The notes beneath the pieces were generated by a model. It worked only from the letters and a program-made list of their open reading frames with translations. It had not been told where the DNA came from and did no database searches. From assembly GCA_902784435.1 (NCBI GenBank), contig CACZUR010000012.1, positions 29,824 through 93,823 on the forward strand: a stretch of DNA of 64,000 bases. Direction: 5' to 3'. The position numbers and the translations under genes are program-made. How positions within the stretch are numbered: the stretch's first letter is position 1; each line of letters starts with the position of its first letter. This DNA comes from an uncultured Bacteroidia bacterium (GTDB taxonomy: Bacteria; Bacteroidota; Bacteroidia; Bacteroidales; UBA932). This document shows positions 3,946 to 57,848 of the stretch, piece by piece.

Positions 3946-3957
3946 CCGGCCGATCGG

Positions 3958-4065
3958 CCTGGCCGGCAAGTCGCTGATAATCTGCAAATTACGCAAACTC
4001 CGGTGCAAATTAAAGTGTACCGGAGTTTACGTAAGTAGTTGGAATTCAATCAATTACCGGGCAGG
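3958..4065. repeat. Nested-palindrome intergenic element, copy C (between def and tcdA)
   Basis: Outer arms CCTGGCCGG (3958-3966) and CCGGGCAGG (4057-4065) pair with one mismatch. The inner hairpin AAACTCCGGT / ACCGGAGTTT (3995-4004 and 4019-4028) pairs perfectly around a 14-base loop. The segment 3966-3993, read on the minus strand, matches the conserved core of copies A, B and E. The right outer arm lies in the last codons of tcdA. Convergent genes on both sides make a two-way terminator role likely. Confidence 0.7.
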
Positions 4066-4800
4066 CTCAGTGAAGATGTTTTGCATGAGCAGGCCGGCAA
4101 GGGTGTTGCCGAAGATGGCGGTGATGTGAACCAGGGAACCGTTGACGCAGGCTTTGCGGACGATTTCATCGGCCGGTGCCTGGGGCTCTCCCCTGTTTTC
4201 CAACAGTTCCTCCGAATAGACGCAAAGAAAGGGCTTGGCAGTTACCCGGCCTTCCCGGCGCATCTTCTTGCGCAGGGCGCGGGCCAGCGGATCTCCGTGC
4301 ACGTCCCAGAATTCGGCCACACGAATACGCGTCGGGTCGATTTTAAGTGCGGCGCCCATAGAGGAAAAGAACACCGCATCCGTGCGGGTAGCCAGTTCTA
4401 TCAGCAGGATCTTATCCTTCAGGGAGTCTATGCAATCGATGATATAGTTGTAGTTTTCCAGGCCGAACGACGAGGCCGTTTCCTCACAGAACAATTCCTG
4501 CCGGGTCTGGATATCGGCCCTGGGATTGATCTCCAGCAGCCGTTCCTTCAGTGCCTCCGTTTTGGGCCGGCCCAGCGTACGGGTGGTTGCCATCAACTGC
4601 CGGTTCACATTGGAGGGATTCACGCAGTCGGCATCCACGATAGTCAGGTGGAAGATGCCCGAACGGACCAGGCTTTCAGCGCACCAGGAGCCCACGCCTC
4701 CCACACCGAAAAGGATTACCCGGCAGGCTGCCATGCGTTCCATCGTATCTTCACCCAGCAGCAGGCGGGCACGCTTGAATATGTCCTGCATGTTTTCCAT
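4054..4800 (-). CDS. tcdA: tRNA threonylcarbamoyladenosine dehydratase (ThiF/E1-like)
   Basis: ATP-dependent enzyme that cyclises t6A37 of ANN-decoding tRNAs to ct6A. The 248 residues carry the nucleotide loop GVGGVGSWCAESL, the IVDADCVNPSNVNRQ stretch (Asp and Arg of the E1 active site) and the IDCIDSLKDK helix, all typical of TcdA/CsdL rather than MoeB, which is fused or longer. The ATG is chosen; a TTG three codons upstream lies inside the promoter box. Leader length is nearly zero. The last codons (EPAR, stop) are made from the arm of a palindromic repeat, so the C-terminus may have been altered by that element. Confidence 0.9.
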   Translation of the reverse strand: MENMQDIFKRARLLLGEDTMERMAACRVILFGVGGVGSWCAESLVRSGIFHLTIVDADCVNPSNVNRQLMATTRTLGRPKTEALKERLLEINPRADIQTRQELFCEETASSFGLENYNYIIDCIDSLKDKILLIELATRTDAVFFSSMGAALKIDPTRIRVAEFWDVHGDPLARALRKKMRREGRVTAKPFLCVYSEELLENRGEPQAPADEIVRKACVNGSLVHITAIFGNTLAGLLMQNIFTEPAR

Positions 4801-34705: not shown

Positions 34706-34815
34706 GCCTGGCGCGTAACTTACAATCCCTGAGCCAGTTGTAGGAAAATGGGTGCACCGCACGGTGCACCCATTTTCCTGTAATTCACTGATATTCCGCT
34801 ATTTGCGCGCCAGGC
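34706..34815. repeat. Nested-palindrome intergenic element, copy A (between rpoN and mraZ)
   Basis: Outer arms GCCTGGCGCG (34706-34715) and CGCGCCAGGC (34806-34815) pair perfectly. The inner hairpin is an 18-bp perfect stem AGGAAAATGGGTGCACCG (34742-34759) with its complement (34762-34779) and a 2-base loop. The conserved core, beginning TGTAATTCACTGATATTC, is 34779-34806. The best-formed copy of the family seen here. Confidence 0.85.
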
Positions 34816-50043: not shown

Positions 50044-50088
50044 GCCTGCCCGGGAAGTGCCTGATATTCAGCCAATTCCCGGGCAGGC
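50044..50088. repeat. Half-length nested-palindrome element, copy D (between ftsZ and gltX)
   Basis: Perfect 13-bp arms GCCTGCCCGGGAA (50044-50056) and TTCCCGGGCAGGC (50076-50088) close a 19-base loop that holds part of the family core (CTGATATTCAGCCAATT). Segment 50052-50079 aligns with copy C 3966-3993. The inner hairpin of the full elements is missing. It starts 15 bases after the ftsZ stop. Confidence 0.65.
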
Positions 50089-51941: not shown

Positions 51942-51949
51942 GTTTCGTG

Positions 51950-52054
51950 CCTGGCGCCCAACCAATTGACACACAGCAAATTACAGACTATCCGGTGCAC
52001 TTTTTTGTGCACCGGATTTGTTGTAAATCAGTGACTGTCAGCTACTTGCCAGGC
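51950..52054. repeat. Nested-palindrome intergenic element, copy B (between gltX and truB)
   Basis: Outer arms GCCTGGC (51950-51956) and GCCAGGC (52048-52054). The inner hairpin is ATCCGGTGCAC / GTGCACCGGAT (51990-52000 and 52007-52017), 11 bp perfect, loop TTTTTT. Core segment 52022-52049 matches copies A, C and E. The right arm lies in the final codons of truB (LPGK, stop). Convergent genes flank it. Confidence 0.8.
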
Positions 52055-52959
52055 AGGCTGTCGAACAACGACAGCGCCTGCTCCAGGGAAAGGGCGTCCT
52101 GAACGCAGAAATCCCCGCTGCGGGAACGGATGAGGCCGGAAAGATGAGCGCCGGAGCCCAGGGACTCGCCCAGGTCGCGGGCGAAAGCGCGGATGTAAGT
52201 GCCTTTGGAACACGCGATGCGGATCACGGCTTCCGGCAGTCCCAGGGCCGATGTATCGGCCACATGGATACGCGCCGATGCATGGGAAACCTCCGAAGAA
52301 GGAGAGGAAGCGACACGGGGATCAACGGTGCCTGGGACCGGGCCCACGGAACCCGCGGGATAAAACGCCAGGAGTTCCAGCTCCGAAATCACAATCCGGC
52401 TGCGGTGAAGGGTTTCCAGGGCGGCGGCATCAAACCGGGATTCCCGGTCGGAGCCGGGGTGGGCCAGGTGCGCCTTGTAGAGTTTCCGGGCCAGTTCGTA
52501 GGCCCGGACCCCGTCTACGCTTTTGGCGCTGAAAAGCGGCGCCACCTGCTCCTGGTCGCCCAGGAAGGCAGGGAGGGCAGTGCGCACGGCATCGGCCGAA
52601 ATATGCTCATAGGGGAAGCGCCGGTCCACCTCCTTCTCCAGGTCGTAAGACGGCGTAGTGGCCCCGAAACGGATGCGCGCGATATATTCCTTGTCGTGGT
52701 CCTGCAGCTCCTGGGCCCGTTTGCAGGCATTGCCGATGCAAACCAGCAGCACCCCCGTCGCCAGCGGATCCAGCGTGCCGGCGTGACCCACCTTCAGGTT
52801 TTTCTTGCCGAAGTGCCGGATGGCTTTCCATTTGATTTTGCGGATGACATCGGCCGATGTCCAGCGATACGGCTTGTCTACCGGCAGGACGATGCCTTCC
52901 GGATAGTCGTCGATGTCGTGAGACAGAAGCGTTCCGGGCTGCGGAATCAGGAAACTCAT
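52042..52959 (-). CDS. truB: tRNA pseudouridine-55 synthase TruB
   Basis: Makes pseudouridine 55 in the T loop of tRNAs. The 305-residue protein has the catalytic motif VGHAGTLDPLATG (nucleophile D64), the YEL-containing SVDGVRAYELAR segment and the CSKGTYIRAFARDLGE helix. It is longer than most Bacteroidota TruB (about 240): a Ser/Pro/Ala-rich insertion (about 205-245; VGPVPGTVDPRVASSPSSEV) is placed before the last conserved block. ATG at MSFLIPQ chosen; it overlaps the rpiB stop (ATGA). The C-terminus is formed by the arm of a palindromic repeat. Confidence 0.93.
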   Translation of the reverse strand: MSFLIPQPGTLLSHDIDDYPEGIVLPVDKPYRWTSADVIRKIKWKAIRHFGKKNLKVGHAGTLDPLATGVLLVCIGNACKRAQELQDHDKEYIARIRFGATTPSYDLEKEVDRRFPYEHISADAVRTALPAFLGDQEQVAPLFSAKSVDGVRAYELARKLYKAHLAHPGSDRESRFDAAALETLHRSRIVISELELLAFYPAGSVGPVPGTVDPRVASSPSSEVSHASARIHVADTSALGLPEAVIRIACSKGTYIRAFARDLGESLGSGAHLSGLIRSRSGDFCVQDALSLEQALSLFDSLPGK

Positions 52960-57738: not shown

Positions 57739-57848
57739 GCGTTTTCGCTAAATAGCTAGCAATCAGCGATTTGCAACTTTTCCTCCTGGCAAAAACGCCG
57801 GGAGGAAATTTTATATTCGGCTCACAATCAACTGCTTAGCAAAAACGC
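57739..57848. repeat. Nested-palindrome intergenic element, copy E (after pnp)
   Basis: Outer arms GCGTTTTCGCTAA (57739-57751) and TTAGCAAAAACGC (57836-57848) pair with one mismatch. The inner hairpin TTTCCTCCTGGC / GCCGGGAGGAAA (57779-57790 and 57797-57808) has loop AAAAAC. Segment 57747-57775 read on the minus strand matches the family core. It starts 19 bases after the pnp stop. Confidence 0.75.

Follow-up and report, generated by a model that had tools for sequence, protein, structure and literature searches.

The stretch of DNA analysed here (the window, 64,000 nt) comes from an uncultured Bacteroidia bacterium (Bacteroidales; UBA932; assembly GCA_902784435.1, contig CACZUR010000012.1, positions 29,824-93,823). 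Between rpoN and mraZ it carries a full nested palindrome of 110 nt, hereafter element A. Three other full copies lie between the convergent genes gltX and truB (element B, overlapping the truB stop codon), downstream of a peptide deformylase gene (element C) and between pnp and an NlpC/P60 gene (element D, a member of subfamily II with outer arm GCGTTTTTGC and inner arm TTTCCTCCCGG). A collapsed half-copy of 45 nt has one 19-nt core enclosed by the 13-nt outer arms, the inner hairpin and the other core being absent. Coordinates are given in Table 1. All five elements and their common layout had been described in the original prediction, and all were recovered, with a slight shift in the ends of elements B and C.

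Table 1. Positions of the elements in the window and of the elements found at the truB 3' end in relatives
Feature	Position	Strand	E value	Remark
Element A	34706..34815	+	1.3e-15	full copy
Element A, outer arms	34706-34718/34803-34815
Element A, cores	34719-34737, 34784-34802
Element A, inner hairpin	34738-34783
Element B	51949..52058	+	2.3e-16	full copy
Element C	3957..4066	-	1.3e-17	full copy
Element D	57739..57848	-	7.3e-19	full copy
Half-copy	50044..50088	+	1.1e-4	collapsed
truB 3'-end element, relative	L204:174-283			arms differ
truB 3'-end element, relative	L205:1386-1492			arms differ
truB 3'-end element, relative	L209:2404-2513			arms differ

A core of 28 bases had been proposed to be alike in four of the elements. 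Their membership in a single family held for all four, but at no more than 3 mismatches the core pattern itself matched elements A and B only (2 matches in the window vs 0 in 100 shuffles), elements C and D being more divergent. These 28 bases correspond to the right-hand core plus its edges, which is the better conserved of two cores; a second one of like type exists on the left-hand side. Upon folding, the four full copies and one further copy of the same genome each beat all 200 dinucleotide shuffles (z -3.1 to -7.9).

Comparison of the window with Rfam at gathering score yielded two tRNAs only and nothing at the elements, in agreement with the earlier remark that no named family of this pattern was known in Bacteroidales. 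The best sub-threshold Rfam match at element A was istR (E 4e-4, 28.3 bits vs a cut-off of 45), which was judged to be a hairpin effect and rejected. Blastn searches of phage records with element A gave no match, no relative of the transposase described below was confirmed on viral contigs, and no description of this hairpin family was found in the open-access literature.

Element layout and covariation

The 110-nt unit is made of an outer arm (positions 1-13), a core (14-32), an inner arm-loop-arm segment (33-78), a second core (79-97) and a second outer arm (98-110), that is, a 13-bp outer stem and two 19-nt cores separated by an inner stem-loop of about 20 bp. The core consensus, based on 264 half-sites, was AA.t..(C/T)TGA..ATCAG....TTA, and the outer end carried a cCGT tip. 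Cores were conserved as letters and were general across arm subfamilies.

Covariation was assessed on several sets of copies. Six copies (the four full copies of the window, one from a core-pattern search and one beside a transposase gene) provided the cleanest test, because the covariance model used to collect the larger sets (R2, see below) rewards stem pairing and covariation in the copies it finds is partly built in. These six aligned almost gap-free on one hairpin diagonal. Pairing was observed in 88.6% of their stem cells vs 65.6% after shuffling, it fell to 28-46% when partners were slid by 1-3 columns, and 23 of the 31 stem pairs displayed changes on both sides. Among 63 copies from the same genome, 82.9% of the stem cells were paired vs 63.9% in shuffled data and 36.9-46.5% with slid partners. 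The number of pairs changed on both sides (27) was not unusual in this set (83 of 500 shuffles reached it); the number of cells with two-sided changes (407 vs 161 shuffled) and the covariation score both were. Two sets of copies of exactly 110 nt, with a few own copies in common, gave the same picture: covariation was confined to the outer and inner stems in 39 copies of the own genome, and the outer and inner stems reached z 26 and z 37, respectively, in 104 non-redundant copies from transposase loci. No covariation between cores exceeded chance in either set (z -0.7 for the 104 copies). The proposal that arms differ between copies while each pairs with its partner was confirmed, with strong covariation in both stems and none in the cores.

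The cores are near-palindromic (CTGA..TCAG) and a cloverleaf fold was also considered. It was rejected as conserved pairing, mini-hairpins within cores being devoid of covariation in the 39 own and the 104 other copies (left z 1.2, right z -2.7), though the fixed core letters could still pair.

Arms differed mainly by the subfamily membership of the copies. Within subfamilies, where own-genome copies of modal length were compared, Watson-Crick double changes exceeded shuffled values in subfamilies II (41 vs 17.5, 23 copies) and I (17 vs 9.8, 10 copies), and showed no excess in subfamily III (7 vs 9.3, 12 copies). Pair-breaking single changes were commoner than compensated ones in all three (87, 40 and 45 in II, I and III). 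Owing to this partial excess of double changes and to the many pair-breaking ones, selection for structure, as originally suggested, was upheld as pairing kept by lineage, and only in part as selection on each copy after insertion.

Conserved letters enclosed by covarying stems are a classic RNA-like pattern, and one strand outscored the other in the window copies; both features would suit a structured RNA (riboswitch-like or sRNA) with a conserved internal loop and covarying helices. Such an RNA is nevertheless extremely improbable here. The elements are near-palindromic and the second strand also scored strongly in all four full copies of the window (92.9/73.6, 87.5/80.0, 82.2/67.7 and 79.0/65.3 bits with the covariance model), the best-scoring strands beside transposase genes occurred in either orientation, and the outcome of the Rfam comparison points the same way.

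Copy number and distribution

A covariance model built from the six copies (R1) detected at least 60 distinct places in the own genome (2,232,861 bases, 82.6% complete) at E<=0.01, the six seed copies and the half-copy included, in line with the original prediction, for which many copies in a whole-genome search were to count as support. This number is a lower bound since 150 of 286 first-look candidates were scored. One copy had been found on another contig by the core-pattern search, and another on contig C5, immediately 5' of a gene for a Y1 transposase. After joining strands, 67 distinct rows were obtained at E<=10, 7 of them weaker than E 0.01. The 63 rows with a length of 104-111 nt were aligned to build model R2 and the other 4 were dropped for length. 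On the basis of their inner arms, these 63 copies were distributed among subfamilies II (25 copies), III (20), I (11) and IV (4), with 3 others.

Copies were placed mostly at gene 3' ends. According to a rough codon score trained on ten ORFs of the window (seven with Pfam support), 24 of 64 own-genome copies lay between codirectional genes, 12 between convergent and 1 between divergent genes, 25 contexts being unclear and 2 located at edges.

Among 198 genomes drawn across the order, only the own genome was matched at E<=1e-5. This absence is weakly tested because scoring covered only 19 candidates in each genome and the draw contained few close relatives: the rows listed include a single congeneric genome and a single one from the same family, neither of which matched. 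Within the genus, 42 of 61 genomes had both elements and Y1_Tnp matches, 5 had elements only, 4 had Y1_Tnp only and 10 had neither (p 2e-5, a value that ignores relatedness). Three of the 5 element-bearing genomes (among 47) without a Y1_Tnp match are 70-78% complete; the other two, G013 and G030, are 96-97% complete. G013 had 2 element matches. G030 (97% complete) had at least 63 strand-counted element matches and no Y1_Tnp match at E<=0.001, its transposase being either lost or diverged.

Orthologous junctions in relatives

Element A had no counterpart detected by R2 in G038, G037, G005, G060 and G016, the five relatives with mraZ next to rpoN among 29 loci read, and the sequence upstream of mraZ was recognisably alike in these five. 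Other short palindromes were observed between rpoN and mraZ at L176, L179 and L180, where element A is missing, for instance a hairpin of the TTCGTCCTTG...GAGGACGAA type; they perhaps represent a second repeat family. After pnp, an element with a different inner arm was present in one of six relatives (G057, in which the NlpC/P60 gene is inverted), and R2 matches were absent from G019 and G028, which have the gene order of the window, and from G037, G038 and G051. After truB, elements with other arms were found in 3 of 10 relatives (G028, G034 and G019; Table 1), of which the one in G034 flanks a transposase gene on its 5' side. The remaining 7, including G054 and G051 with the same convergent gltX, had no element. 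Either insertion has recurred at the truB 3' end, or a single old element has persisted there with its arms altered in place. Neither insertion events nor target duplications were observed, the sites of the relatives being too diverged for exact junctions; these comparisons document turnover of elements at shared gene ends and not insertion itself.

The gene contexts reported above, the strong inner hairpin, the compensatory changes within subfamilies II and I and the other-arm elements at the truB 3' end of relatives could all be accommodated if the elements were intrinsic terminators, or bidirectional terminator and mRNA-stabilising hairpins, selected at gene 3' ends, with the link to a transposase being secondary. 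We regard this as quite improbable. A terminator scan for GC-rich hairpins directly preceding a T run detected 0 sites around element A and 1 at element B vs a shuffle mean of 0.4, termination would make the conserved core and the outer stem of a 110-nt unit superfluous, and several orthologous junctions do without an element. The bracketing of one transposase clade, on the 5' side too, would also be unexpected.

Association with one clade of Y1 transposases

Three Y1_Tnp proteins are encoded in the own genome, on contigs C4, C5 and C24. With Pfam Y1_Tnp (gathering cut-off 23 bits), scores were 28.8 for the C4 gene, 26 for the C24 gene and, in two separate searches, 21.4 and 23.4 for the C5 gene, and the three proteins matched NCBIfam NF047646 (REP_Tyr_transpos) at 52.2, 48.9 and 33.6 bits, below its cut-off of 80. 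A profile match was obtained with solved chains titled TRANSPOSASE (2xm3, 2xma and 2xo6, E 2e-4), which we take to be TnpA of the IS200/IS605 type.

The 61 genomes of the genus gave 138 Y1_Tnp matches, of which 75 were examined: 3 own, 12 delivered by the search and 60 chosen, mostly from element-rich genomes, together with the remaining matches of the four genomes with Y1_Tnp and no element. In a tree of 73 proteins (two of fewer than 240 aa were left out; the midpoint root serves for drawing only), a branch with a support of 100/100 and a length of 2.31 separated 38 proteins, designated clade 1, from 35 others. The C4 and C5 genes belong to clade 1 and the C24 gene to the other clade. Clade-1 transposases are about 310 aa long and mostly display [DN]HxH and YxxNNP motifs, with F at the place of W according to our reading of the alignment. 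Both HUH histidines and the motif tyrosine were invariant in 32 aligned proteins; a pattern retrieved the Y motif in 31 of the 38, 30 of them of the YxxNNP type.

A search for a RAYT or IS200-like transposase had been recommended along with the original prediction, and it linked the elements to this RAYT-type clade. With R2 at E<=0.1 and a distance limit of 350 nt, elements flanked 24 of the 75 Y1 genes on both sides and 9 on a single side, and 42 genes had none. All of these elements were beside clade-1 genes (33/38 vs 0/35; Fisher p 1e-15, ignoring relatedness), for a chance expectation of about 0.013 elements per ORF end at the density of the own genome. The own C4 gene was among the 5 clade-1 genes without an element at this distance, its nearest one lying 748 nt away. 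The C5 gene was bracketed by two copies, one 86 nt 5' and one overlapping the stop codon, with similar arms (GTGGAG outer, TCCCCC inner). No transposase flanked by arms of the own subfamilies I and II was seen in the 82.6%-complete assembly. In three of the genomes with Y1_Tnp and no element (G029, G035 and G053), all matches were examined and only other-clade proteins were found; the fourth, G036, encodes one clade-1 protein, beside which no element was detected.

A second sample, overlapping in part with the first, came from named metagenome-assembled genomes and comprised the 80 best loci among 198 relatives of an alignment of nine proteins. All were titled Bacteroidales or Bacteroidia, many with names referring to the rumen or another ruminant gut. 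Elements were present within 400 nt on both sides in 51 of them, on one side in 27 (3 at contig edges) and on neither in 2, at median distances from the ends of the protein match of 91 nt (5') and 8 nt (3').

Several variants were observed beside transposase genes. Immediately downstream of one gene, three consecutive copies were separated by about 25 nt each (L114:2339-2715). Shorter elements of about 80-100 nt flanked their own transposase lineage at L159, L162, L258 and L285; at L159 and L162 the short outer arm abuts a TGATnnTCAG core directly. On contig C24, a different nested palindrome (L009:4083-4176) with 17-nt perfect outer arms, an inner hairpin and a core unrelated to that of the family lies 3' of the other-clade Y1 gene. 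A crude scan for nested palindromes gave 2/32 (3') and 0/32 (5') for other-clade genes, and was insensitive because it detected only 7/37 (5') and 8/37 (3') for clade 1.

Flanking copies as close to the gene as those of the 80 loci would also be expected if the elements were the terminal inverted repeats of a conventional composite or IS-like transposon (TIRtron), the solitary copies then being remnants of excision or deletion of the gene, not independently mobile. Long terminal inverted repeats around RAYT-like genes have been described, as have dispersed families of TIRs (PMC3733652). We hold this explanation to be unlikely since about 60 places vs 2 clade-1 genes in the own genome would require many clean deletions.

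Similarity of arms between elements and to resident transposases

Arms and cores behaved differently in the 66 loci that had a full element on either side of the gene (57 once proteins >90% identical were removed). Arm identity between the 5' and 3' elements of one gene was 0.72 (outer) and 0.74 (inner) vs 0.43 and 0.37 between genes, nearly matching the identity between the two arms of a single element (0.75 outer, 0.78 inner). Core identity was 0.46 within and 0.42 between genes, and ranged from 0.41 to 0.46 in every comparison. Likewise, transposase similarity was correlated with arm similarity (Mantel r 0.31 outer and 0.40 inner, 0/2000 permutations), the value for the cores being 0.14 (129/2000 permutations). 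The simplest reading of the identity, Mantel and covariation results would be that arms act as an address and the core as a general contact, but arms would follow the gene as well if a gene and its flanks simply shared their descent.

Dispersed copies were read in two genomes, among the top-scoring ones (16 in G028 and 23 in G037, flanking copies included). Away from transposase genes, 10 of 11 copies in G028 had arms closest to the flanks of a resident gene at 17 or more of 24 letters, a threshold set by eye and also reached by scores to a wrong gene (up to 17); the same applied to 18 of 22 in G037, many with scores of 17-19. This sharing of arms between dispersed copies and resident transposase flanks is suggestive only.

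Proposed mechanism

Taken together, our data suggest, with a probability that we put at roughly 85%, that these are non-autonomous elements of a new structural type, similar to the REPIN/REPtron system and dispersed by a RAYT-type Y1 clade, transposition itself being inferred. Each element would represent two inverted half-sites (outer arm, core, inner arm) folding into one long hairpin, in which the 19x19-nt core zone displays no conserved pairing. The clade-1 Y1/HUH transposase would recognise the folded single strand; binding, cleavage and a single-strand intermediate are all presumed. Contact common to the family may be made through the general core, whereas the specificity of each transposase would reside in the paired outer and inner arms. 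A surface that reads the arms may lie in the C-terminal half of the enzyme. A transposase gene between two such elements would constitute the REPtron, from which solitary 110-nt copies may have been dispersed to intergenic places, mostly gene 3' ends.

A more far-reaching possibility, to which we are inclined to give somewhat less than even credence, is that these elements form a distinct class. Their address would be the paired arms, in which letters are free as long as pairing is kept, and the core would be a common contact or cleavage site. Several transposase/arm pairs might then coexist in one genome without cross-talk, and new specificities might arise by arm change alone.

The way in which RAYTs discriminate between their own repeats and foreign ones has been examined in only a few REPtrons (three pairs; PMC8266576). 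One genus here offers dozens of natural transposase/arm pairs with a constant core and a near-fixed geometry, and such a series is suited to testing how structure and sequence share recognition. These results also extend abundant REPIN-like repeats to uncultured gut Bacteroidales and supply a covariance model for finding them. A scan for GT[AG]G feet would probably miss these elements.

Comparison with known systems

The closest likeness is to REPINs and REPtrons with their RAYT (TnpA_REP). According to PMC8049555 and PMC6006769, these systems have, like the present one, a Y1/HUH gene placed between palindromic elements, numerous copies scattered over intergenic regions with two inverted half-sites per hairpin, and an own element family for each transposase. 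Co-evolution of TnpA_REP groups with their own REPs has been shown in vitro for the three pairs of PMC8266576. A REPIN is described as two REPs in inverted orientation, separated by a short spacer of high diversity (PMC8049555). By contrast, the elements described here have no GT[AG]G foot, their half-sites starting with cCGT and having AA.t at the core edge (264 half-sites); a conserved core lies between two variable paired arms and the transposase is about 310 aa long.

The IS200/IS605 family shares the HUH Y1 catalytic domain and differs in Y motif and length; moreover, many solitary elements accompany few, diverse transposase genes here, instead of identical IS copies. TIRtrons resemble the present loci by a RAYT-like gene between long inverted repeats, some of them self-complementary and some dispersed (PMC3733652). 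However, some of their TIRs share a GGGGWSAS motif, and a common core with variable arms is not described in the relevant section of that source.

Within TnpA_Y1, subclass 2.6 (Bacteroidetes) is reported to be flanked by 'atypical secondary structures' found by hand (PMC6006769). The present system shares with it a Bacteroidetes host, unusual flanking structures and copies elsewhere in the genome. Its signature (NH[LIV]H, WQ, YIH[QN]NP and a median of 179 aa; PMC6006769, Table 1) disagrees in motifs and length with clade-1 proteins (38 listed, 32 aligned), the comparison being made with the published signature. Because the GT[AG]G foot is absent and the signature and length of subclass 2.6 do not fit, the elements and their transposase were ranked as a variant of the RAYT/REPIN kind. 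RAYT/REPIN systems being already known, what would be new here is a structural variant, the transposase of which differs from subclass 2.6 in motifs and length.
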